Origin: a virus
Strand: one strand, 5' to 3'
IMG/VR virus record: IMGVR_UViG_3300025849_003637
Span: 1-39,854 of that record
DNA length: 39,854 bases
Below the pieces are notes generated by a model, which made no database searches, was not told the origin of the DNA, and saw only the letters and a list, made by a program, of their open reading frames with translations. Within the stretch, counting starts at the first letter, position 1. Every line of letters starts with the position of its first letter. This document shows, piece after piece, positions 13,544 through 34,780 of this stretch. The position numbers and the translations under genes were made by a program.

Positions 13544-14353
13544 TTATAAATCTCCTTTTACTGCTACGTGATCAGTTAATACACTTTGAACATGTGATTT
13601 CGCAACGCTATAATCGACTGGTCCACTTTCATCTTCATATTGTACTGGATCGTCCACACCAAGTTCAATAAATGCTTCAATCCTTTCAACAGATGAAGCT
13701 GATTTGTAATCGCTATTACCGCTAGGATAGGGCTTATAAGATGTATTAGTACGTTTGTATACTTCATCAAATTCAATTCCCAATTCATTAACCAATTCTT
13801 GCCCATCTCTTAAAATTCCTAATTTATCTGTTTTTAAATAAGGTGTAAAATACCCTACTCTATCAGCATCCCAATTACCTTCTCTAAAGGCAGCATCGTC
13901 TGCATCTCTAAATTCTTGTCTACAATCTGGGTAAACGGCATGATCTCCAGCATGAATACCTAATGCTATATCACAAGTTTCTCCTGTTTTATTAGCTACT
14001 GATAGAGCAACTGCTTGAGTAATAGAAGCAAACATTTTATTACGATTAGGAACTACTGTTTCCTTCATATTGTCGTTTTCATAATGTCCTTCTGGTACAT
14101 CATCTCCACCTTCTACTAAAGCTGAGTCTAATAAATCAACTAATCCATTTAGTTGTATTTGGCGATAGTTAACTTTGTGACCATTATCTGCTAGATAATT
14201 AATTAATGATTGAGCTCGTTCTAACTCAATTCTATGTTTTTGACCATAATCAAATGAAATACCAGTTACGGTATCGTATTCAGATAATGCTCTTAATAAT
14301 AGTGTGGAACTATCCATTCCCCCACTTAATGAAACTACTACATGTTTTGCCAT
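13544..14353 (-). CDS. queC: 7-cyano-7-deazaguanine synthase-like protein (QueC) lacking the zinc cysteines
   Basis: Predicted to turn CDG into preQ0 with ATP and ammonia. The 269-residue protein has the PP-loop SGGMDS (10-15), FDYGQKHRIE, VPNRNKMF and YPDCRQEFRDA, all QueC signatures. In ordinary QueC four C-terminal cysteines bind zinc (CY...CGxCxxC). Here the matching stretch (202-226) reads TNTSYKPYPSGNSDYKSASS then VERIEAF, with no cysteine; the whole protein has only C127 and C144. The frame is intact, so this looks like a real variant. It lies 4 bp past the 61-residue membrane gene. Confidence 0.85.
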   Translation of the reverse strand: MAKHVVVSLSGGMDSSTLLLRALSEYDTVTGISFDYGQKHRIELERAQSLINYLADNGHKVNYRQIQLNGLVDLLDSALVEGGDDVPEGHYENDNMKETVVPNRNKMFASITQAVALSVANKTGETCDIALGIHAGDHAVYPDCRQEFRDADDAAFREGNWDADRVGYFTPYLKTDKLGILRDGQELVNELGIEFDEVYKRTNTSYKPYPSGNSDYKSASSVERIEAFIELGVDDPVQYEDESGPVDYSVAKSHVQSVLTDHVAVKGDL

Positions 14354-16024: not shown

Positions 16025-16477
16025 TTATCCTATTTGTGAAGGGGAACATCCCACTTCGTTAACATCGTTTATTTCTGATATTGGTGTATCTGGGCATTCG
16101 TCTATAGCGTTTATGATACCATCCAGATCAAAATCTGCTTTTGCTACTAAAACATCTATACCTGATTGTATTTCCCCTATAGTAGATAAAATACTCTGAA
16201 TGTCATCACTTGTGGGTAATTCATTAGCTCTGGTTAGCAATAGTGATAATGTTTCTTGTAGGGTGTTTAAAGTTGATTGAGCTGAATCTGCATCTATAAC
16301 TAAAGTTTCTATTGATGATTTTAACTCGTTAACTTTTTGGGTTAACTCATTTAAATTCATAGTATTAATTTGATCACTTATTTGTGAAAGTTGAGATCTT
16401 AGATTATCTAAACCCTCTTGCATATTGGGGTTTGCACATGATGTAATAATCATGAATAATAAAATTGTTTTTTTCAT
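16025..16477 (-). CDS. Lipoprotein with coiled coil and thrombospondin type 3-like repeat
   Basis: A 150-residue protein with a lipoprotein signal ending ITSC (Cys14). Residues 18-115 are heptad-like helices (coiled coil). The C-terminus holds DFDLDGIINAIDECPDTP and then NEVGC, a thrombospondin type 3 calcium-binding pattern typical of Bacteroidetes surface proteins. The ATG overlaps the preceding stop (ATGA), so it is translationally coupled to the DUF6884 gene. It would sit in the periplasm or on the outer membrane; its function is unknown. Confidence 0.65.
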   Translation of the reverse strand: MKKTILLFMIITSCANPNMQEGLDNLRSQLSQISDQINTMNLNELTQKVNELKSSIETLVIDADSAQSTLNTLQETLSLLLTRANELPTSDDIQSILSTIGEIQSGIDVLVAKADFDLDGIINAIDECPDTPISEINDVNEVGCSPSQIG

Positions 16478-17448
16478 AGTTTTCTAGTTTCAGCAAACGT
16501 TTGAGCCAGGTTAGGATTTTCTATTACTTTACCCCAATCACCTTTTAGATGTTTGTCTAAATCGGATATGATTCTACCTTTAAGGTTTATAACTGAATCA
16601 CCATGTAATAAGGTCATGTCAGAGGTTGTTTCACAAAAATAAACGTTTCCTGTAGGTCTATTCTTTTTAGATAGTGATTTTTTGATAACAAATAGATGTT
16701 TACTATTATTAAACTCTTTATCTAGTTGTAGTGTTTTTAGGTATGTTTCACCTAAACAATATATAACTAAATCGTATTCGTTTTCGTTTATAATCTTATC
16801 TAAAGTTCCTCTTAGGTTTACTTTTTTACCAAACGTTATTAGGTCCTCATCTGATAGTGAGTTAAAGGTATGTGTATAATATCCTAGTATTTCATCTCTA
16901 TGTACCCAACCATGTTTTGCGGATAGGATATAGTAATCAGCATGTGTTGAGTCTAATGCTTGTACTTGATTACCATGATAAAACTCACCTGCTCTTTTAG
17001 TACCAGTTTTAATAGTTTTCTTTTTACTACACTGGGTTACTATTAATACTTTATTGGATGTATCTCTAACTAAAAACTGTTCTAAATCAGGTCCTATATA
17101 GCCCTTTTCAAAATCCTCTAAAGATTGTTTTTGTTGTTTCTCTCTATTTATATTGGTTTTAGATCTATCATAATAATAGTGAGGTAAATCCTTATCCTCC
17201 TCAGCATAGTAAGGACGGATTTGACCATCTTCTAACTCAACAAATAAATCCCTTAGTGAACCTAGTTTTACTCTATGAGGAGTATTTACTATTAACTGGC
17301 CAAACATCATAGTAATACCCCCTCTAGACCAACTTCGTTCTGTATTGTCTACTAAGTATTGGTATATTTCATCTTCCCACTCTTTTTTAGTTTGGGAAAA
17401 ATACTTTGGTTTAGATGATATTAATTCTTTAGTATATTCGGTTCTCAT
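16474..17448 (-). CDS. DUF6884-like protein linked to the DpdA-like gene (second of three)
   Basis: A 324-residue protein with no signal peptide. Residues 1-130 form an N-terminal domain (helical opening, then HRVKLGSLRDLFVELEDG). From about 131 the DUF6884 pattern appears: VLIVTQCSKKKTIK, RAGEFYHGNQV, DYYILSAKHGWVHRDEI and YYTHTFNSL. Its ATG overlaps the DpdA stop by one base (TAATG), and it overlaps the lipoprotein gene by 4 nt. Coupling to DpdA suggests an accessory in base exchange. This is inference; DUF6884 has no proven biochemistry that I can cite. Confidence 0.65.
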   Translation of the reverse strand: MRTEYTKELISSKPKYFSQTKKEWEDEIYQYLVDNTERSWSRGGITMMFGQLIVNTPHRVKLGSLRDLFVELEDGQIRPYYAEEDKDLPHYYYDRSKTNINREKQQKQSLEDFEKGYIGPDLEQFLVRDTSNKVLIVTQCSKKKTIKTGTKRAGEFYHGNQVQALDSTHADYYILSAKHGWVHRDEILGYYTHTFNSLSDEDLITFGKKVNLRGTLDKIINENEYDLVIYCLGETYLKTLQLDKEFNNSKHLFVIKKSLSKKNRPTGNVYFCETTSDMTLLHGDSVINLKGRIISDLDKHLKGDWGKVIENPNLAQTFAETRKL

Positions 17449-24209: not shown

Positions 24210-25847
24210 TTATTGTAGTTTTAATATTTGTTGTTTTCCTTCTAAACTAGCAGCATCAGTATTAAAAATAGTTACTAACCCTACTGTTGAATCCACATCA
24301 CCTGAAAATATTAATTTTATAGTAGATCCATTTTCTATTATATCTCCTTGTTGGTTAATGACTCCTACATTAACTCTATTTGATTCTGCTGTAGCAAAAT
24401 TAGTAGATGTGTTACCAACATTGAATATTACTTCTTCAAATGTTAGTCTTGTGTTGTCAAAATCTAATTTGAGTTGTAAAGCTGCTGTGGTATTAGATAA
24501 TATTTCTAATGTAGCTACTACTTTACCATCTTCTAAAGCTACACTGTAATCAGCGTTTATAAACGATTCTCCTTTCATGCTCATACCATATTGGAAGGAT
24601 TTAGCTGATGCTAGTGTCACTTGGTTATCTTGGCTTACAGTATGGGATAGGTTAGCATCCCCAAACATACCTCCTTTAAATCTTATCACTTGGGTGTTTT
24701 GGGAAAAATCTATATTAATAGCACTATCATCAGGAATACCTGTACTGAAAAGTTGTTGGGTTGTTAATGCATTATAGTCTGATGCTGGTACTACCATAGC
24801 GAATTCTTCAAATGTGTCGTATTCACTATATAGGTCAACTTGACCTAAAACATGTCCTAACATATTATAAGCATCTTGAGATGTGATAGCGGTATCTTCA
24901 TTTACATCTGCTGCTACATATTGTATTACATTAAATACTTCTCCAGTATTACCATGATCAAATTCTCCTGCTTCTTTTAAAGTTAAAGCTACATCTGATA
25001 TTGTTACTATATTATCTTTTAAAGTGGATAATTCAGAATCTGTCCCATCCCATACAAAGTTATAAGTGTATGTTGATTCACTTTTAGTAATAAATTCAGT
25101 TATATTAGCATCTCCATTTGAGTCTAATTGAACAGTACCCACAAGAATGCCATCTTCAACTACAAGTAGTTTAACATTTGTAGGGTCTATATTAGAATTA
25201 AAATCTACTTTAACATAGATATTACTATCTAAATCTTCTAAAGGTACAAAACTTATGGATTGTGTTTCATATGCTCTTACCTCACCATATGGGAATACAT
25301 ATTCTGATGTTCCTGAGTTGTCTGCTACTCTAGCCATAGTGACATTAATAGCATCAGTATAATTAGAAACGCTAGTATCTTTTACTAAAAAATGCATAGT
25401 AACATAAGTACCTTCAAACGCAGTAGTTGATATTGCTTGCCAATGATCTACATTCCACCCATTAGAAGAACCATATGATCCCCCTCCTCCATTCCATTGA
25501 GCCCATAAATCATTTTCATCATAGTTACTATTTGGAGTCCATTTTGTATCTGTCCAACTAAAAAGTGAATTATTAGCATTTGTGGGGGTGTTGAAAGTAT
25601 GATCAACTAAAGTAAATGCATTAGAGTTATATTCAACATCCGCATGGATGTATGTAATATTTTTATCTGAGAGATTATTAAGGTCTAATTTTAAGATTAT
25701 TGTGTCGTTAACTTGGACTTTAGTAATGTCGGTCTCTCCTGAGACGGTACTTACAAAATTGAGATCTATATCAATACCATCTGTTGATGATGTAAGTTGG
25801 CCTAAAACTATAGTAGGTAATAGTAATAGAATTAATAGATTTTTCAT
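24210..25847 (-). CDS. Exported protein with cohesin-like and dockerin-like domains
   Basis: A 545-residue protein with a signal peptide ending VLGQ (about 17). Residues 25-185 and about 400-540 resemble cohesin-type beta-sandwiches (for instance LKLDLNNLSDKNITYIHADV and LQLKLDFDNTRLTFEEVIF). Between them, ADVNEDTAITSQDAYNMLGH (313-332) fits one calcium-binding dockerin repeat, and FGDANLSHTVS a possible second. Such domains mediate protein complexes on cell surfaces. Its stop lies 1 bp before the lipoprotein gene. The fold calls are by pattern; the partner is unknown. Confidence 0.6.
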   Translation of the reverse strand: MKNLLILLLLPTIVLGQLTSSTDGIDIDLNFVSTVSGETDITKVQVNDTIILKLDLNNLSDKNITYIHADVEYNSNAFTLVDHTFNTPTNANNSLFSWTDTKWTPNSNYDENDLWAQWNGGGGSYGSSNGWNVDHWQAISTTAFEGTYVTMHFLVKDTSVSNYTDAINVTMARVADNSGTSEYVFPYGEVRAYETQSISFVPLEDLDSNIYVKVDFNSNIDPTNVKLLVVEDGILVGTVQLDSNGDANITEFITKSESTYTYNFVWDGTDSELSTLKDNIVTISDVALTLKEAGEFDHGNTGEVFNVIQYVAADVNEDTAITSQDAYNMLGHVLGQVDLYSEYDTFEEFAMVVPASDYNALTTQQLFSTGIPDDSAINIDFSQNTQVIRFKGGMFGDANLSHTVSQDNQVTLASAKSFQYGMSMKGESFINADYSVALEDGKVVATLEILSNTTAALQLKLDFDNTRLTFEEVIFNVGNTSTNFATAESNRVNVGVINQQGDIIENGSTIKLIFSGDVDSTVGLVTIFNTDAASLEGKQQILKLQ

Positions 25848-26445: not shown

Positions 26446-26979
26446 TTATAGAAGTTTCATTATTTTTTTAACAGTGTTTTTACCTACCTTTATTGTGTGG
26501 TATGGTATATCATGCTTGTCTAAAACCGTTTTACATAGTTTATCTATAGCGATTGATTCTTCTAAATCTTGGAATCTTTCATCCTCACTATGTATGGTTT
26601 CTCCCCTATCTAATAGTATGTTTATACTATCATACTGATTATGTAGATCGACTACTAAATCATGAAAAGGTTGTCTATAATATTCTGCTGGGTAACCATT
26701 GGTGTAGTAAGTATGGTATATTGTAGAAAATAGTATAGGTGAATCTATTATAATATAATCTACTTTACCATATGCCTGTGCTATACCTCTATGTTGGTTA
26801 GCAAAAATATATAACTGATCTTTAATTGCGGGGAGGTTATTATCCCATGCTATTGTTTTAGGAAATTCATATGGATTATTACAACTAATATGGTTTTTCT
26901 TAAGTTTATAAGTTATACCAGCAGCAATTCCACTTTTCCCAATTCCGGGGCCTCCAAATAAATTAACTAGTTTGCTCAT
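26446..26979 (-). CDS. P-loop ATPase / nucleotide kinase-like protein
   Basis: A 177-residue soluble protein with Walker A GGPGIGKS (residues 9-16), a hydrophobic-D-S strand (YIIIDSPIL, about 75-83) and a late basic-acidic segment (LLDRGETIHSEDERFQDL). The layout fits small AAA/nucleotide-kinase-type P-loop proteins found in T4-like phages. The ATG overlaps the end of the 48-residue gene. Reaction and substrate unknown; a role in nucleotide metabolism is possible. Confidence 0.65.
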   Translation of the reverse strand: MSKLVNLFGGPGIGKSGIAAGITYKLKKNHISCNNPYEFPKTIAWDNNLPAIKDQLYIFANQHRGIAQAYGKVDYIIIDSPILFSTIYHTYYTNGYPAEYYRQPFHDLVVDLHNQYDSINILLDRGETIHSEDERFQDLEESIAIDKLCKTVLDKHDIPYHTIKVGKNTVKKIMKLL

Positions 26980-27109
26980 AATCTTGAAGTATAATTTCTA
27001 CGTACCAAATTCCTAAATCTATTATTAATGCTTTATATTCATTATAGTAATAAGTATATGTAATACCAAATGATATTTGCATAGTATGTTTACCTGTTAC
27101 TATTTTCAT
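26963..27109 (-). CDS. Small protein, 48 aa
   Basis: The frame reads MKIVTGKHTMQISFGITY and ends VEIILQDYEQTS. It is beta-like with no signal peptide. It overlaps the stop of the 75-residue gene (ATGA) and runs 17 nt into the P-loop gene start, so all three look coupled. A TATATTTA box (27114-27121) lies 4 nt upstream, but no TTG is found at the class I spacing. Function unknown. Confidence 0.5.
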   Translation of the reverse strand: MKIVTGKHTMQISFGITYTYYYNEYKALIIDLGIWYVEIILQDYEQTS

Positions 27110-27333
27110 TGTGTAAATATACTATATAAGTAGCCACAAATACCGACTACATTTAATAGTGATAAGTTATATGATTTAGTTTTTTGAGTTTGTACTGTTA
27201 GTAGTGCTAATCCTATTACAGATAATACTTTACCTAATAGGAAGTTGACAAAAAATGGTCCAATCATTAGGGACGCTGTGCCTATGTAAATTACAAAAAC
27301 TTTGTAAAGTAATTCTTTTGTTTCTTCTTTCAT
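27106..27333 (-). CDS. Small membrane protein, 75 aa
   Basis: Two hydrophobic stretches (YKVFVIYIGTASLMIGPFFV and VLSVIGLALLTVQT) and a third near the C-terminus (VGICGYLYSIF), with a charged N-terminus (MKEETKE). Its ATG overlaps the end of the S1/P1-type nuclease gene by 1 base. Function unknown; a small inner-membrane protein is likely. Confidence 0.5.
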   Translation of the reverse strand: MKEETKELLYKVFVIYIGTASLMIGPFFVNFLLGKVLSVIGLALLTVQTQKTKSYNLSLLNVVGICGYLYSIFTQ

Positions 27334-28103
27334 TATTCAAAAATTTCATTAATTAATAATCCTAATCTTTTGCCAGCTAAAAATAACCTTTCTTCTAAAA
27401 CTGGTTGGTATTTGTATATGTAATCATATGATAAAGAAATACCTTGTGGTGTGTCTTTATAAATTTGTTTCGCGTATTGGTGAGATTCATAAGTCCAATC
27501 AACTACTTGCTTTTGTTCTACTATTGTATTTCTATTTTTGTTGATTAAGTGAGTACTCCACTCAGTATATGACATTTTAAAATCATCAATTAAATTAGTG
27601 TCCCACAACACATGAAGGTTAGTATTAGTTTCTTGACCTTTTCTACCTTTAAATTTTATTCTGATTTTACTACCACCATAATCCTCATATCTTCCAGTAT
27701 GCATTGGTTGATGTAAATCACCAACTAAATGTACTAAATACTTAAGATAGAACTTTTTTGTTTCTTTATCAACATTAGGTGATTTTAAAATACCTATTGC
27801 TTTTTTGATAATGATAACTACATTTTCTTGGGTGTGTTCTATTTCTGTATATTCTTTATCTAAAGGTAAATTAACATAATGCCATTTACCAAATTTATCA
27901 AATTCAGGATTACTTCTCATTTCATCAGGCCATGTACTAACTGATGCTAATGATTCCCCATCTAATATATCGTATACTATTTCTTTTACTTCTTTGGTTA
28001 ATTGTCTTTCGGCAATCTCACCAATAATTCTATGACCTACTTTACCCCAATCGTCTGCAAATAACATTGTTGGTAGTAATAATAAAACTAATAATTTTTT
28101 CAT
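27333..28103 (-). CDS. Exported S1/P1-type nuclease
   Basis: A 256-residue protein with signal peptide (1-16 or so, TMLFA). The zinc-binding set of the S1/P1 family is visible: W19 near the mature N-terminus, GHR (H24), STWPD (D60), KWHYVNLP (H75), HLVGDLHQPMH (H125, D129, H131, H135), and NLHVLWD (H164, D168). These enzymes cut single-stranded DNA and RNA and release 3'-nucleotides or phosphate. It would act in the periplasm or outside the cell. It is downstream of the TonB-dependent receptor, separated by a terminator, so it starts a new unit. Confidence 0.9.
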   Translation of the reverse strand: MKKLLVLLLLPTMLFADDWGKVGHRIIGEIAERQLTKEVKEIVYDILDGESLASVSTWPDEMRSNPEFDKFGKWHYVNLPLDKEYTEIEHTQENVVIIIKKAIGILKSPNVDKETKKFYLKYLVHLVGDLHQPMHTGRYEDYGGSKIRIKFKGRKGQETNTNLHVLWDTNLIDDFKMSYTEWSTHLINKNRNTIVEQKQVVDWTYESHQYAKQIYKDTPQGISLSYDYIYKYQPVLEERLFLAGKRLGLLINEIFE

Positions 28104-28110
28104 AATCTAT

Positions 28111-28140
28111 TTAAAAATAAATGGGGGCCTAAGCCCCCAT
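28111..28140 (-). terminator. Hairpin terminator after the TonB-dependent receptor gene
   Basis: ATGGGGGC and GCCCCCAT form a perfect 8-pair stem around a 4-nt loop; the minus strand continues TTATTTTTAA. It lies 4 bp from the receptor stop and just upstream of the S1/P1-type nuclease start. Confidence 0.8.
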
Positions 28141-28144
28141 ATTA

Positions 28145-30622
28145 TTAAAATTTATATTTGAGAGACATATTCCATGTACGTCCAAATCCGAACCATACAC
28201 TATTTCTTGTATCAACTCCGTTCCAAGTAGTAGAACCAGCAGTTGCATGAATATTACTATTAGACTCTGCGATGTATGTAGTGTCTAATAAGTTATTAAT
28301 ATTTGCTCTTAATGACCAACCATTAGCTGCATAAAATGTAGCTCCTAAATCTACAATACCATAAGAAGGTAGTTTTAATGCTCCTTCATTATCTGGGTTA
28401 GTAAATGCTGAATCTGTAATACTGTAATCAGCATATAAACCATCTACAAATCTGTAATCTAGATCTACTTTTAATTTATCACCTAATCTTTGATCAACAC
28501 CTATGAAAGCAGTAATTTGAGCAGCATCTCCAACCTTAGCACCTTTAGTATAAAGTTTACCAGTACCAATTGATTGTTGGTTTTCGTCAAATAATTCTGC
28601 TTCAAAATCTTTAGTATAAGTCCAATCACCAATAGATAACATACCTCTTAGTTTTGTAGAACCTAATCTATAAGTTGCTTCAGCTTCAATACCTTTATGA
28701 GTTACGTCAATATTTCTGAACTGAGCAGTTCCATCTACACCTTGCTGGTTAGATAAACTACGAGATACAAATCTATTACCCCAGTTGGTATTGTATGCAT
28801 TAACATTTACCTTTAATCTTCTGCCTATATAACCATATCCAATCTCAAATGATTCAATACGTTCGTTTTGTAGGTTTGGATTGATATCGTTTCCAAAGTT
28901 AGGAAATACAGCACCAAATTGAGGCTGACGATCAATAAATCCAGCATTTACAAATACGTTAGATTTTTCAGTAAAGTTATAGTTAACACCACCTTTAAGA
29001 TACCCACCACCTAAGTTAGCTTTATCTGAAATAGGATTATCTACGTTTGCAAATCTATCTTCTCTTTGGAATTGTTGGTTAGATGCTCCGGCTTGTAGTA
29101 CTGCAGTAATCTTATCACCAGCATATTCTACTAATCCATTAAATCCAGCCCATTTTACAAATCCAATATTATAATAAGCAATCTTTGCTTCGTTGTCTCC
29201 AATATTAGTACCTCTGAAAGGGTTAGCTGATACTAAATCAGATGAACCATATAGTTGGGTTCCTAAGTTTTGATTACCAGTAGAAGCATATTGATTAAGA
29301 CCTAATAGATCATTCATCGTTCTGTAGTGATAACCTGTATAATTACGTAGATCAATACCTACTGAATATCTCATTTTACCTTTCTGAATATTAAGCTTAG
29401 AAATAGCTCCAACCCAGTTATGAGAGTTCATAGATGCTCTACGTACTAATACGTTACGTGCATAAGCTTTATCATTGTGAGATCCTACTTCATATTGGGA
29501 GTTATGAGAAACTACTGCATCATAGTTAATAGTACCATCAGCATTTCTAGTTCCTTTACCATCTTCTAGATAGTGTTCTGTTAAATCCTTACGGAAAGGT
29601 AACATATCAATAGACCCTTCATAGTAGTTTCTACCTCTAGGACCTGTTCCTCCACCTCTACCAGCTGAACCATATACAGATGTGTTTAACTGGATATTGT
29701 CTGAAATATCCCAATCCCAGTTAAAGGTAGCAAGAGGCTTATTGTAGAAGTTTCTACGTAAGTTATACTCTTCACCATTTAACGTTCCACCGTTAGTATT
29801 CCATCTTTGATCAATACCTTCTTTACCAAAGTTCTGGTAATCTCTAATAGATACCCAAACATCTCTTTGATGATGCCATTGTCCTGCTCCTAAAACTGAT
29901 AAGTTAAGACTGTGTTTTGAGCCTTCTGGTGTATAACCAACAGATGCAAAATAAGTCCAACCAGCTCCTGATGTATTGTAAACGTATCCGTTACCAGACC
30001 ATTTAGTCAATAAATAAGAAGAAGACCATCCTTTGTCATTTACTCCGGTATTGTAAAGAGCGGTTGTTTTAGTGTAACCGTTATTACCTACCATTTGAGT
30101 AATAGATCCACCTTGAGCTTTCTCTGCACTTCTAGTGAAAATAGAAACAGTTCCACCGACTGAAGGAACTGCTAATGAAGTGGCACCTAGACCACGTTGG
30201 ATTTGGATGTTAGACGTTACATCTGTCAATCCTTGCCAATTCGACCAATATACCCAACCGTTTTCCATATCATTAACGGGTTGACCGTTAATAAGGAAAG
30301 AAGTATTACGCTGATCAAAACCACGAAGACTAATACGACTATCACCATATCCTCCCCCTTGTTTAGTAGCATACACCCCGGGTGTCTTGTTCATGATTTC
30401 TGGAAATTCCTGATTTCCTACTTTTAACAACACCTCTTGTGCTGAGATTGTACTTACGGCAATTGGTGTCTCTCTTTCTCTGGCGACATCAATAACACGT
30501 GAAGATACTACTACTTCTTCCAAATTTACATCTAAGATGGTTTTGGAATCGGTAGACGATTCTTGAGCGTAAGCTCCTACTGTTAAAAATATTAACAGCA
30601 ACGTTGTAACGAGTTTTTTCAT
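28145..30622 (-). CDS. TonB-dependent outer-membrane receptor
   Basis: An intact 825-residue receptor. The signal peptide ends GAYAQ (20). A TonB-box-like stretch LEEVVVSSRV (34-43) is followed by the plug domain (TPGVYATKQGGGYGDSRISL, LRGFDQRNTSFLINGQPVND and QIQRGLGATSL) and a 22-strand-type barrel ending SLKYKF. It lacks the N-terminal carboxypeptidase-like domain of SusC proteins. It should import a ligand through the outer membrane with host TonB. Such a receptor is not a usual phage gene; the surrounding replication, lysis and tail genes argue against a host contig. Ligand unknown. Confidence 0.92.
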   Translation of the reverse strand: MKKLVTTLLLIFLTVGAYAQESSTDSKTILDVNLEEVVVSSRVIDVARERETPIAVSTISAQEVLLKVGNQEFPEIMNKTPGVYATKQGGGYGDSRISLRGFDQRNTSFLINGQPVNDMENGWVYWSNWQGLTDVTSNIQIQRGLGATSLAVPSVGGTVSIFTRSAEKAQGGSITQMVGNNGYTKTTALYNTGVNDKGWSSSYLLTKWSGNGYVYNTSGAGWTYFASVGYTPEGSKHSLNLSVLGAGQWHHQRDVWVSIRDYQNFGKEGIDQRWNTNGGTLNGEEYNLRRNFYNKPLATFNWDWDISDNIQLNTSVYGSAGRGGGTGPRGRNYYEGSIDMLPFRKDLTEHYLEDGKGTRNADGTINYDAVVSHNSQYEVGSHNDKAYARNVLVRRASMNSHNWVGAISKLNIQKGKMRYSVGIDLRNYTGYHYRTMNDLLGLNQYASTGNQNLGTQLYGSSDLVSANPFRGTNIGDNEAKIAYYNIGFVKWAGFNGLVEYAGDKITAVLQAGASNQQFQREDRFANVDNPISDKANLGGGYLKGGVNYNFTEKSNVFVNAGFIDRQPQFGAVFPNFGNDINPNLQNERIESFEIGYGYIGRRLKVNVNAYNTNWGNRFVSRSLSNQQGVDGTAQFRNIDVTHKGIEAEATYRLGSTKLRGMLSIGDWTYTKDFEAELFDENQQSIGTGKLYTKGAKVGDAAQITAFIGVDQRLGDKLKVDLDYRFVDGLYADYSITDSAFTNPDNEGALKLPSYGIVDLGATFYAANGWSLRANINNLLDTTYIAESNSNIHATAGSTTWNGVDTRNSVWFGFGRTWNMSLKYKF

Positions 30623-30666
30623 TTTCGTTTTTTTGGATTAAAAAAAAATTAAACAATACATAACCT

Positions 30667-31287
30667 TTAACGTACATGTTTTACTTCATATTCCTCCCAA
30701 CCCATTGTTGGTTTTTTATTTGGAAAGGAAAAGCAGCGTTTAACATTACTTTTTGTAAATTCAATACATTTAATAAACCTACTAGGTAGTGTAGCTCCTG
30801 TAGGTAGAATTGAATCTGAGAATTTTATTTCAATTGTGATTTTTAGTTCTTCTTGATCATCCCATTTTCTTTCTTGTTCTTCTAATACCCTCCAAGCACC
30901 TCTATTTAGGTATTGGTTTTGTAAAGCACAATTAAGGTAAGAAAATGTTTGTTTTAAGTTTTCTCTACTATCAGAAAATGTAGCGGCAGGTGCTAGATGA
31001 CCTTTATCCCATACATTTCTATAATAATCTCTGTTATCAGAAGTATGATATTTAGATTCTGTATAAAAGTTCATGGAACCCCTATCTACGTTTTTGGGTC
31101 TATTTGAAGACCTATAAACGAGTTTTAGGGGTTGTTCTTTTGTTTCAGAATAAATTACAGAAAATATAGGGGTATTAACTTTAACTTGTTGTCTTAAGTT
31201 AGGTTCTCTTAATTGGGCTTTAGTACAAGACGAAAACCCAATAATAAAACCAAATAAAAATAACTTCAATGTTTTTTGTAAATTCAT
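30667..31287 (-). CDS. Lipoprotein DNA/RNA non-specific endonuclease (NucA/NUC1 type)
   Basis: A 206-residue protein with a lipobox (GFSSC, Cys21), so it should be anchored in the envelope. The beta-beta-alpha metal nuclease core reads WDKGHLAPAATF (93-104; D94, catalytic H97), a DKGH variant of DRGH, then TFSYLNCALQNQYLNRGAW (Asn as metal ligand, LN..W pattern). The family degrades single- and double-stranded DNA and RNA. The gene lies just upstream of the receptor gene and 28 bp past nrdA. Nucleic-acid attack in the periplasm or outside the cell is the likely role. Confidence 0.88.
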   Translation of the reverse strand: MNLQKTLKLFLFGFIIGFSSCTKAQLREPNLRQQVKVNTPIFSVIYSETKEQPLKLVYRSSNRPKNVDRGSMNFYTESKYHTSDNRDYYRNVWDKGHLAPAATFSDSRENLKQTFSYLNCALQNQYLNRGAWRVLEEQERKWDDQEELKITIEIKFSDSILPTGATLPSRFIKCIEFTKSNVKRCFSFPNKKPTMGWEEYEVKHVR

Positions 31288-31315: not shown

Positions 31316-33028
31316 TTAGCCATCACAACTTACGCAATCAGCTACTCTACTTCCTAAGTCTCCTTTAATAACGGAATCAGTACGTAGGTAATATAATGTC
31401 TTTATCCCCAGTTTCCAACTTTCTAGGTGAACTTGATTAATCCATTTTGGTGAATCATCAGGTGTAAACGATAAGTTAAGTGATTGTGTTTGATCTATAT
31501 ATTTTTGTCGTATAGCAGCTTGACGTACTAGTTCAAGTTGGTTTATTTCTGGGAATGTAAAGAATATCTCTTTTTCATCTGGTGTTAATACGTCATCTGG
31601 TAATCCCATAACACTACCATCTTGTGCTAACATCATATCCCACCATTTATCTTGATTTTTACCTTTTGATTCAAGTAATGCTTCTAATGATTTATTTTTA
31701 CGAATAAATGTTCCTTTAGCACCATTAAATGTGTAAATATTCGCTGGTAAGGGCTCAATACCTGCGGAGATACCTCCTGTTATGACACTATTCGATACAG
31801 TAGGAGCTGTCGCTAATAAATGCGTATTCCTCATACCTGTACCTTTACACCAAAGTGGCTCACCATATTCTTGAGCTAAATCTCTTGATGCTTTTTCAGC
31901 TTTATACTTAATATCTGAAAATATATTATGTGTATGTGCTGTTGATGCTATTGAGTTAAATGGTAGATTCTTTTGTTGTAAGAATGAATGCCAACCCATT
32001 ACACCTAAACCTAAAGCACGACCTTTACGAGCATGGTTATGTGTACGTTTTAGTGATTCTCTTCCTGATGATTTATCAATGAACTCTTGCATAACACCAT
32101 CTAAGAACCAAGTTGATAACTCTACAGCGTCTGTATCCTTCCACTCATCATATTTAGCTAAGTTTAAAGAAGATAAACAACAAATAAATGAATGTTCTTC
32201 ATCTGTAAATAAAGTGATTTCAGTACAAATATTAGTCATACTTACTTCTAAGTTATTCATAGCATAAGAAATAGGATTGTTTTTATTAACATTATCCTTA
32301 AACATAATATAAGGTTCACCTGTTTCCATTCTTGACTTTAAAATCTCAGCCCATAAACCCATTGCTTCTTGATCCCTTGCTTCTAACTTTCTCATGAAAG
32401 CATCATCAGCAACCACACATTGGTGTAAGTTTAGACATTGTCTATTAGGATCTCCTTTAGGTCTTCTAATCTGCATAAACTCTGATATGTCTGTATGATT
32501 AATATCTAAGTTTACAGATGCAGCGCCTCGTCTTACATTACCTTGATTAGTTGCTACGATAGTTGAATCGTATATTTTAGCCCAAGGTACAACACCCTCT
32601 GATTTACCATTACCTGAAATCTCTGTTCCTCTACCTCTAATACGAGATAGTGAAATACCAACACCACCACCTTGTGATGTTAGTTTCATCAGTTCAGCAT
32701 TTGTTAATCCTATACCTCTAACTGAATCTGGTGTATCAACACCAAAACATGAAATAGGTAAACCACGATCAGTACCCATATTAGATAAAACTGGTGATGC
32801 TAATCCTAACCAACCATTCCATACTAACTTAAAGAACTTATTCTCTAGTTCTGGTTTTTTAAGTCTCATAGCTACTGCTTTAGCTACTCGTCTATATGCT
32901 GTTTTTGGTGTTTCACCAGGTAATAAATAACCCTTTGAAATTGTTGAGAGTGAAATCTCGTCAAAAAACTCAGGATAGTCTTTACCTGCTACCCAGTTAT
33001 CAGTGTTTGAAATCAAGTTGTTGTCCAT
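31316..33028 (-). CDS. nrdA: Class I ribonucleoside-diphosphate reductase alpha subunit (NrdA)
   Basis: Makes deoxynucleotides from NDPs with NrdB. I place the start at the second ATG (33028), giving 570 residues, because the earlier ATG at 33136 would overlap nrdB by 104 nt. Catalytic signatures: ISCFGV (first redox Cys), TNICTEI (Asn-Cys-Glu radical site), CCLSSLNL (second redox Cys), KTLYYLRT (radical-transfer Tyr pair) and a C-terminal CVSC pair reduced by thioredoxin. There is no ATP-cone at the N-terminus, so overall activity control by dATP is probably absent. It follows nrdB by 4 bp. Confidence 0.95.
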   Translation of the reverse strand: MDNNLISNTDNWVAGKDYPEFFDEISLSTISKGYLLPGETPKTAYRRVAKAVAMRLKKPELENKFFKLVWNGWLGLASPVLSNMGTDRGLPISCFGVDTPDSVRGIGLTNAELMKLTSQGGGVGISLSRIRGRGTEISGNGKSEGVVPWAKIYDSTIVATNQGNVRRGAASVNLDINHTDISEFMQIRRPKGDPNRQCLNLHQCVVADDAFMRKLEARDQEAMGLWAEILKSRMETGEPYIMFKDNVNKNNPISYAMNNLEVSMTNICTEITLFTDEEHSFICCLSSLNLAKYDEWKDTDAVELSTWFLDGVMQEFIDKSSGRESLKRTHNHARKGRALGLGVMGWHSFLQQKNLPFNSIASTAHTHNIFSDIKYKAEKASRDLAQEYGEPLWCKGTGMRNTHLLATAPTVSNSVITGGISAGIEPLPANIYTFNGAKGTFIRKNKSLEALLESKGKNQDKWWDMMLAQDGSVMGLPDDVLTPDEKEIFFTFPEINQLELVRQAAIRQKYIDQTQSLNLSFTPDDSPKWINQVHLESWKLGIKTLYYLRTDSVIKGDLGSRVADCVSCDG

Positions 33029-33032
33029 GTTT

Positions 33033-34013
33033 TTAAAATATATCGTTCGCGTCCCAGTTTTGTGCTCCTTTACTATAGTTTGTAACTCTATTTGCAAAGA
33101 AGTCAGTGTGTTGTTTTCCTGCTGATAGTGAATCAAACCACTTCATTCTTTTTACTGCTGATTCATCTATACCATTTACTATAGCACCATAACCTAAATC
33201 ACCCATTTTAGTATTTACTCTATGTTTGATAAAAGATACTAAATCATATTTTGGACATCCTTCTAAATCACCCATTTCGTATACTTTATCTATAAAATCT
33301 AGTTCAAGTTTTAAAGACAAATGAGCTGCTTCTTCGATTTCTGCTCTTAGCTCAGGTGTATTTATTTCTGGGTTTTCCTCTAATAACTGTCTAAATAACC
33401 AACATCCAGCATTTGAGTGTAATGATTCATCTCTAATACTCCACTCTACTATTTGACCTACACCTTTAAGTTTATTTTGTAGTTTAAAAGATAATAAAAC
33501 AGCGAATGAAGAGAATAAATTTACACCTTCAGTAAATGCTGAAAATATAGCTAATGATTTAGCTCTAGCACTCCAATCAGGTTTACCACCATGACCATCT
33601 CTGACACTCATAAGGTTTTCGATTTTAGCCATCGTTGTTTCATCTTCTAAAAACTCACTAAAATCATCTAATCCTAGTTCTTCGTTTAATAACGAATAGG
33701 CTTCAGCATGTACAGTTTCCATATTAGCAAAACATACACCCATCGCAATGATTTCAGGTTTTCTAAACCACTTGGTAACTAAGTTTGACCAATAGTCGTT
33801 TACTACTGTTTCTGTTTGAGCGAATCCCTTGAGGATAGATCCTATAATATTTTTTTCAGTTTCTGATAAGTTTTGTTTCCAATCTGTAACATCAGCCATC
33901 ATAGGAACTTCAGTCCAAATCCAATGTGCTTGTTGTTGTTTTAGATAAAAATCAAACGCCTCTGGGTATTCAAAGGGTTTATATACTATTCTTTCCTCAG
34001 TAATGTTCCTCAT
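33033..34013 (-). CDS. nrdB: Class I ribonucleoside-diphosphate reductase beta subunit (NrdB)
   Basis: A 326-residue protein that houses the diiron-tyrosyl radical. Metal and radical residues fit the E. coli pattern: ETVHAEAY (Glu, His, radical Tyr), EGVNLFSSFAVLL (Glu) and RDESLHSNAG (Glu, His). The end NWDANDIF provides the C-terminal tail that docks into NrdA. It starts 3 bp after the third DUF6884-like gene, and nrdA follows. The Tyr is present, so this is a standard tyrosyl-radical subunit (class Ia/b type). Confidence 0.95.
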   Translation of the reverse strand: MRNITEERIVYKPFEYPEAFDFYLKQQQAHWIWTEVPMMADVTDWKQNLSETEKNIIGSILKGFAQTETVVNDYWSNLVTKWFRKPEIIAMGVCFANMETVHAEAYSLLNEELGLDDFSEFLEDETTMAKIENLMSVRDGHGGKPDWSARAKSLAIFSAFTEGVNLFSSFAVLLSFKLQNKLKGVGQIVEWSIRDESLHSNAGCWLFRQLLEENPEINTPELRAEIEEAAHLSLKLELDFIDKVYEMGDLEGCPKYDLVSFIKHRVNTKMGDLGYGAIVNGIDESAVKRMKWFDSLSAGKQHTDFFANRVTNYSKGAQNWDANDIF

Positions 34014-34015
34014 GT

Positions 34016-34780
34016 TTATTGTTTATTTAGTTTTAGTTTATCAAATCGTTGTTTGGAACAACTATAATCGTTATCCCTTAGTTGTTTTAGTGTTCCCCCT
34101 TTAGACATAAAATCTAAAATAAAAACATCATCTACCTTTTTACGTTTTTTATAAAGATCTTCACCATATTGTTTGTCTAGATCTTCTATTATTTGAGTTA
34201 GTTCTTTATTACCTGATAGGTGTGGGTGGTTATTTACTAGGTATTGGGTGAACTTAACGCTTAAGTTATTTGCTCCACTACCCAACCACTTTGCTAATCT
34301 ACCTAGTTTATACCCGTTTAGTATAATAATATTATCCTTTTTAGGTAAATCCAAAACGTTTAAATAGTCTGGATTAACTGTAAATATTACTACTTTATCT
34401 CCACTCCAATATTTAGTAAAATCACCAAACTTATTAAACCAATATTTATTTGCTTCCTTTTGAGTTAGATTAAACTTAGGTATTAATAAGTGTTTATTTT
34501 CTACATATGCGTCTGAAAACGTAATAGAATAGGGTACTATAGGTGTGTCTAAAGTTATAATACCATACCCCGCTGAAACTACATATGTTGGTACTTTATT
34601 ATCTAACTCTTTTATGAGTTCCCATTGAGTTCCCTTATAAACATCTCTACTAGGTATACCACCTTGTGTTTTTGATTCCCATTCACTAAAGGTAGAATCT
34701 ATATCTGCTGTATTAACCTTAGAAATATCGACTACAATATCTCCATGTTTTTGAGAAACACAACTTACAAATACCTTCAT
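34016..34780 (-). CDS. DUF6884-like protein (third of three, divergent)
   Basis: A 254-residue soluble protein. VFVSCVSQKHGD at the start, then PTYVVSAGYGIITLDTPIVPYSITFSD (about 77-103, shown as VVSAGYGIIT and VPYSITFSD), match the C-S-x-K ... SAxxGxx ... PYxxxF pattern of the other two copies at lower similarity. The C-terminal third is a helical domain with a KQRFDKLKLNKQ end. It sits between helicase and nrdB, so it is co-expressed with replication genes rather than the modification cluster. Function unknown. Confidence 0.5.
   Translation of the reverse strand: MKVFVSCVSQKHGDIVVDISKVNTADIDSTFSEWESKTQGGIPSRDVYKGTQWELIKELDNKVPTYVVSAGYGIITLDTPIVPYSITFSDAYVENKHLLIPKFNLTQKEANKYWFNKFGDFTKYWSGDKVVIFTVNPDYLNVLDLPKKDNIIILNGYKLGRLAKWLGSGANNLSVKFTQYLVNNHPHLSGNKELTQIIEDLDKQYGEDLYKKRKKVDDVFILDFMSKGGTLKQLRDNDYSCSKQRFDKLKLNKQ

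Follow-up and report, generated by a model that had tools for sequence, protein, structure and literature searches.

A TonB-dependent receptor gene carried by marine phages beside secreted nucleases, a candidate import step for nucleic-acid scavenging

The window, which is the whole stretch of DNA that was analysed, is an IMG/VR virus record of 39,854 bases. On its minus strand, at positions 28145-30622, it encodes a TonB-dependent receptor (TBDR) of 825 aa with an ATG start, identified by Pfam and Foldseek. Read in the direction of transcription, the surrounding genes follow the order ribonucleotide reductase (RNR), Endonuclease_NS, TBDR, S1/P1 nuclease, a 75-aa membrane protein (m75) and a P-loop kinase. 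The receptor had already been described in an earlier, sequence-only reading of this DNA; its setting between two secreted nucleases and amid nucleotide-metabolism genes is absent from that account.

All the parts of a complete receptor that the sequence-only reading had claimed are present. The signal peptide MKKLVTTLLLIFLTVGAYAQ at the N-terminus (recognised by eye rather than with a signal-peptide predictor), the TonB-box-like stretch LEEVVVSS and the C-terminus ending in KYKF, with its terminal Phe, were found by reading the sequence, while the plug domain (residues 49-157, Pfam 7.9e-13) and the TonB_dep_Rec_b-barrel (residues 280-778, 2.7e-18) both score above their curated cut-offs. The protein corresponds to a short form of the family, which lacks the N-terminal CarboxypepD_reg-like domain of many homologues of approximately 900 aa. 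In the AlphaFold2 model (pLDDT 62.7) the barrel is modelled and the plug is modelled poorly (pLDDT <50), and the top Foldseek matches of this model are TBDRs only, namely PqqU/YncD, Fiu, FhuA, FecA and OprC. The predicted structure gives the general TBDR fold and no clue to the substrate, NCBIfam assigns no substrate name above its cut-off, and a riboswitch as a clue (B12 or TPP) was dropped because Rfam reports no B12/TPP-type riboswitch at six host loci and no riboswitch match in the window. The ratio dN/dS among the phage copies is 0.07-0.125 (about 0.1), and 241 of the 244 columns that are near-invariant across 75 host proteins are kept in the window protein; the gene is therefore intact and under strong purifying selection, and it is not decaying. 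Together with the intact reading frame, these values lend support to the earlier suggestion that the receptor is functional, in so far as this can be judged from sequence.

The gene is flanked by two short elements. Directly after the stop codon, at 28121-28140 on the minus strand, lies an intrinsic terminator with a strong stem of 8 pairs (6 of them GC) followed by TTATTTTT. The earlier claim that the receptor has a terminator of its own is borne out by its recurrence behind nearly every phage copy inspected, and terminators also stand behind the orthologous TBDR in both host genes inspected. Upstream, at 30646-30665 on the same strand, lies the element GGTTATGTATTGTTTAATTT, with the conserved core TGTTTAAYT, for which the consensus before phage TBDRs is GGTTAtrt..TGTTTAAYTT. 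Among 76 phage TBDRs, 29, drawn from several clades of the tree, have the core upstream, as against 1 of 75 host TBDRs and 5 of 933 other phage genes; the phage loci that have the element include most of L001-L017 as well as L021, L028-L030, L036, L057, L060-L063, L069, L075 and L076. A possible role is that of a promoter or leader specific to the TBDR and retained through gene exchange.

The two nucleases lie on either side of the receptor. The upstream one is a non-specific DNA/RNA endonuclease of 206 aa (Endonuclease_NS, PF01223, Pfam 1.1e-19; 30667-31287, minus strand) with a lipoprotein-type signal (GFSSC); its first motif reads DKGH instead of DRGH, with the His kept, the catalytic His/Asn/Glu positions are kept by eye, and EndoG/Serratia nucleases are among its matches in PDB sequences. 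The downstream one is an S1/P1 nuclease of 256 aa with a signal peptide (PF02265, Pfam 9.8e-59; 27333-28103, minus strand), which carries the zinc-ligand motifs WG..GH, D, WHY, H..GD.H...H and H..WD and matches 8qjl among PDB sequences (2.5e-27). After it comes m75 (27106-27333, minus strand), a three-helix membrane protein that is found near TBDR and S1/P1 genes in phage contigs. This protein was suspected from its sequence to be a SemiSWEET/PnuC-like transporter, an idea that was dropped because it has no Pfam or PDB fold match. A longer phage family to which it is related has an N-terminal four-cysteine (zinc-ribbon-like) domain fused to the same three-helix region (L003:12867-13199, L163:11238-11627 and L168:6174-6521). 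The P-loop kinase (AAA_28, Pfam 7.2e-12; 26446-26979, minus strand), conserved near phage TBDRs, is probably a nucleotide or nucleoside kinase, judging by a thymidylate-kinase-like PHROG match (2e-13); a comparison with solved structures gave no significant match. Upstream of the whole set, also on the minus strand, are the large subunit (31316-33136, Pfam 8.7e-99, PHROG 6.1e-159) and the small subunit (33033-34013, Pfam 7.7e-62) of RNR.

The carrier is a phage, and the junctions of the receptor gene with its neighbours recur in an independent contig. The window contains genes for DnaB, a UvsX-like recombinase, a gp32-like SSB, a 5'-3' exonuclease and RNR. In an independent 89-kb contig (L001), which bears a terminase large subunit, the genes flanking the TBDR to left and right stand in the same order, their proteins being 94-99% identical to those of the window, and other independent contigs (L002-L007) share the cassette or contain genes of phage replication. 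The sequence-only reading had named misassembly, to be seen in the reads across the junctions, as the way in which it could fail; the comparison made here is between contigs rather than of reads, and the junctions hold. The notion that the gene is an assembly artefact or a host fragment in a virus contig does draw on the fact that IMG/VR includes some host sequence, and some weaker viral loci (L058-L080) are poor in phage markers in the stretch examined; against a terminase-bearing contig with the same junctions, and the further contigs L002-L007, it retains practically no probability, and for the window clade it is refuted. The receptor gene is a candidate phage auxiliary metabolic gene: it is host-derived, as its position among host clades in the tree indicates, it lies in a genuine phage genome, and it would boost host metabolism during infection.

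The association is widespread. A scan of 2.9 million viral contigs returned 454 stretches encoding relatives of this TBDR, and hundreds of IMG/VR contigs carry orthologues of a single core TBDR of the Flavobacteriia. When the orthologue of one marine flavobacterium (a genome of 1.5 Mb with 13 TBDR matches) was used as the query, 145 viral stretches were found, and three other TBDRs of the same genome gave 0, 0 and 0 in the same scan, a contrast that is still large considering that the scan uses exact peptide words, with which less conserved TBDRs are harder to detect. Phages capture one type of TBDR, not TBDRs in general.

The neighbourhood of the captured gene varies around a common theme. 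The order of the window cassette is repeated in L001, L005, L006 and L163, and among the 62 viral loci having at least 2.5 kb of downstream sequence an S1/P1 gene lies within that distance in 20, the other 42 having the TBDR with none downstream. Of 81 phage loci, 58 have a nuclease or nucleotide-metabolism gene no more than 2 kb from the TBDR. Some phage loci have IMP dehydrogenase directly upstream (Pfam 1.5e-94), and four from other lineages (L010, L030, L071 and L080) have a purine phosphoribosyltransferase and then GTP cyclohydrolase I directly downstream. Of 48 loci of at least 12 kb, in which the TBDR was compared with random genes of the same loci, 17 have a secreted nuclease no further than 2 kb from the TBDR (random-gene mean 3.7, maximum 11) and 32 have a nucleotide gene there (mean 11.1, maximum 21), figures that are descriptive, given that the exemplar genes were picked after the neighbourhoods had been seen and that the loci are related and non-independent. 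The linkage of the receptor to nuclease and nucleotide genes is thus observed computationally in many phages.

The bacterial relatives of the window protein reach 74% identity and correspond to a core Flavobacteriia TBDR located downstream of pgi (MS024-3C, Polaribacter, Ca. Arcticimaribacter), which in most of the Flavobacteriia inspected comes after pgi and an M23 peptidase. Ca. Arcticimaribacter (L085, L088) has a single S1/P1 gene in its genome, placed immediately behind the orthologous TBDR, and in L088 the genes that come next are those for a nucleoside transporter of the NupC type, a LOG-family protein and Endonuclease_NS, so that the association of receptor and S1/P1 nuclease exists in a bacterium as well. 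Of 20 other Flavobacteriaceae loci, about half have a secreted Exo_endo_phos nuclease downstream, together with a second TBDR that is paired with DUF5689. Many Flavobacteriaceae (L288-L307) have the arrangement M23 peptidase, pgi, TBDR1, small membrane protein, Exo_endo_phos nuclease, TBDR2 and DUF5689, which, from its gene content, looks like a nucleic-acid acquisition region and is not clearly described in the papers searched.

The sequence-only reading had proposed a phylogeny against flavobacterial receptors in order to find the donor, and it was informative: the phage copies are spread among host clades and are not monophyletic. The starred branches of the tree force at least 14 label changes, a count that depends on the labels, a few of the "bacterial" rows being phage contigs binned into MAGs (e.g., L097). 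L097 and L102 are contigs in bacterial MAG bins with TBDRs that barely differ from viral ones, that of L102 being identical to that of L032 over the compared region, and both are probably phage contigs inside these bins. The hypothesis that the TBDRs of phages with S1/P1 arose only once is rejected (AU p = 3.7e-9), and phages have acquired or re-acquired this TBDR at least several times. The nuclease has a different history: the 25 close phage S1/P1 proteins all group in a single clade (99/96), whose sister group (100/99) is the S1/P1 of Ca. Arcticimaribacter, for which a single-protein scan for a viral relative found none. Exchange of the receptor has taken place beside a phage nuclease of single origin. 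On the simplest reading, the cassette would have come once from a host locus of this kind, and the TBDR would later have been swapped with host orthologues while the nuclease was retained; the distribution of the TGTTTAAYT element fits such an exchange.

Three roles had been put forward from the sequence: import of a nutrient during infection, display of an altered receptor that blocks superinfection, and a change in how the host cell is recognised. Nutrient import is favoured because of the nuclease and nucleotide cassette, the host TBDR-S1/P1 locus near a nucleoside transporter and the retention of the invariant residues, while the other two roles are less well supported, the loops being mostly conserved. 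It seems to us somewhat probable that the TBDR provides the import step across the outer membrane in a nucleic-acid scavenging cassette carried by the phage. We infer the substrate (from the gene neighbourhood), the direction of the benefit and expression during infection. During infection the phage would make the Endonuclease_NS as a surface or secreted lipoprotein and the S1/P1 nuclease as a secreted enzyme, and both enzymes would cleave extracellular or periplasmic nucleic acid. The TBDR, powered by the TonB complex of the host, would then carry nucleotides or short oligonucleotides over the outer membrane; the host, and possibly also the phage m75, would handle the inner-membrane steps, and the phage kinase and RNR would channel the products into phage DNA synthesis. 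Repeated exchange with the host orthologue would keep the coding sequence of the receptor matched to the host. Degradation of extracellular DNA has been reported for marine Bacteroidota (PMC8289736). The broader proposal is more tentative, and we give it a little less than even credence: infected marine Bacteroidota cells would be made to scavenge DNA and RNA that are dissolved or released by lysis, and phage genomes would be built from the nucleotides of dead neighbours, with an importer renewed from the current host and a nuclease that is inherited.

The main rival to scavenging is that the TBDR imports another nutrient (an iron chelate, a vitamin, a glycan or a peptide) that is limiting in infected marine Flavobacteriia, and that the nucleases act independently in the breakdown of host or competitor DNA, sharing an early region by chance. 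Several observations that weigh against scavenging speak for this rival, since the solved structures nearest in fold are transporters of iron, copper, PQQ and siderophores, the host orthologue mostly stands by pgi and the M23 peptidase and not in a nuclease operon, and many phages have the TBDR without S1/P1. Scavenging is further weakened by the terminator, which splits the TBDR from the S1/P1 transcript, and by the abundance of nucleotide genes that T4-like replication modules show in any case. A chance association, however, has to contend with a linkage to secreted nucleases and purine genes that recurs above that of random genes, with the only S1/P1 gene of Arcticimaribacter adjoining the TBDR, and with a receptor that was swapped while the nuclease was kept, and we regard import of another nutrient as unlikely, though deserving serious attention.

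Superinfection exclusion or altered host recognition, in which the phage copy would replace or compete with a host TBDR that serves as a phage receptor, has the precedent of TBDRs such as FhuA, which are classic phage receptors (PMC11436027), and would suit the repeated capture of a single TBDR type. Two putative loops of the window clade (330-392 and 439-482) are also somewhat more variable than the strands (0.83 and 0.81 versus 0.89); yet conservation in the remaining loops and the plug roughly equals or exceeds that of the strands, the host-invariant residues are retained, an extra similar receptor leaves that of the host in place, and the neighbouring nucleases and purine genes are left unexplained, all of which makes this role rather improbable. 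Uptake of larger DNA for recombination or genome building, instead of small nucleotides, is very improbable. It is suggested by the TBDR2 and DUF5689 neighbours of the host gene, a pair likened through the DUF5689 domain to that of Riemerella, where DNA uptake and transformation require a DUF5689 protein and the outer-membrane protein next to it (PMC8459023); this role was established for a different protein pair, and the phage nucleases alongside would destroy long DNA.

The closest known system is the core Flavobacteriia TBDR itself, which is orthologous to the window protein and shares its invariant residues and terminators; it usually lies by pgi and the M23 peptidase, whereas the phage gene has nucleases, RNR, GuaB or PRTase/FolE as neighbours and often its own 5' element. 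The L088 locus has three protein types in common with the window (TBDR, S1/P1 and Endonuclease_NS), but in place of NupC and LOG the phage has m75, the kinase and RNR. In the literature searched, nothing direct on phage TBDRs was found except a note on the marine megaphage Mar_Mega_1 (LR745206), with a SusC-like TBDR that was suggested to serve uptake as an auxiliary metabolic gene (PMC9723777). That case is similar in that a marine phage carries a TBDR, which is distantly related (only 31.7% identity over 24% of the window query), and nucleases are not mentioned in the text of the paper; no phage TBDR-nuclease cassette was found in the same literature. Phage receptors of the FhuA/BtuB type have the barrel fold in common with the window protein and also link phages to TBDRs, but phi80 and N15 encode Cor, a blocker of the host receptor FhuA (PMC11436027), while the window phage encodes a receptor. 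SusCD systems and polysaccharide utilisation loci likewise combine TonB-linked outer-membrane import with adjacent secreted hydrolases; the hydrolases of the window are nucleases, and a SusCD-type locus was discarded, with no SusD-like lipoprotein or glycosidase among the neighbouring window proteins scanned.

It is well known that phages recycle host DNA and that they carry phosphate-uptake genes. If the scavenging proposal is true, an active importer of the outer membrane encoded by a phage together with secreted nucleases would be a new route to feed on extracellular nucleic acid, and it would tie viral lysis to the turnover of dissolved DNA and phosphorus in the sea. It would also offer a first functional handle on a widespread TBDR of the Flavobacteriia, and uptake by infected cells would become a question that is directly testable.

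Other genes of the window concern the phage itself. Genes like QueE and QueC and DUF6884 matches (19-813, 13544-14353, 16474-17448 and 34016-34780, the last one weak) point to a 7-deazaguanine modification of the phage DNA, as far as family matches indicate, and GTP cyclohydrolase I is also present in other TBDR-bearing phages. At 24210-25847, a protein of 545 aa whose Cohesin-like match is weak (0.0016) and stays under the curated cut-off is possibly a surface protein of the virion.
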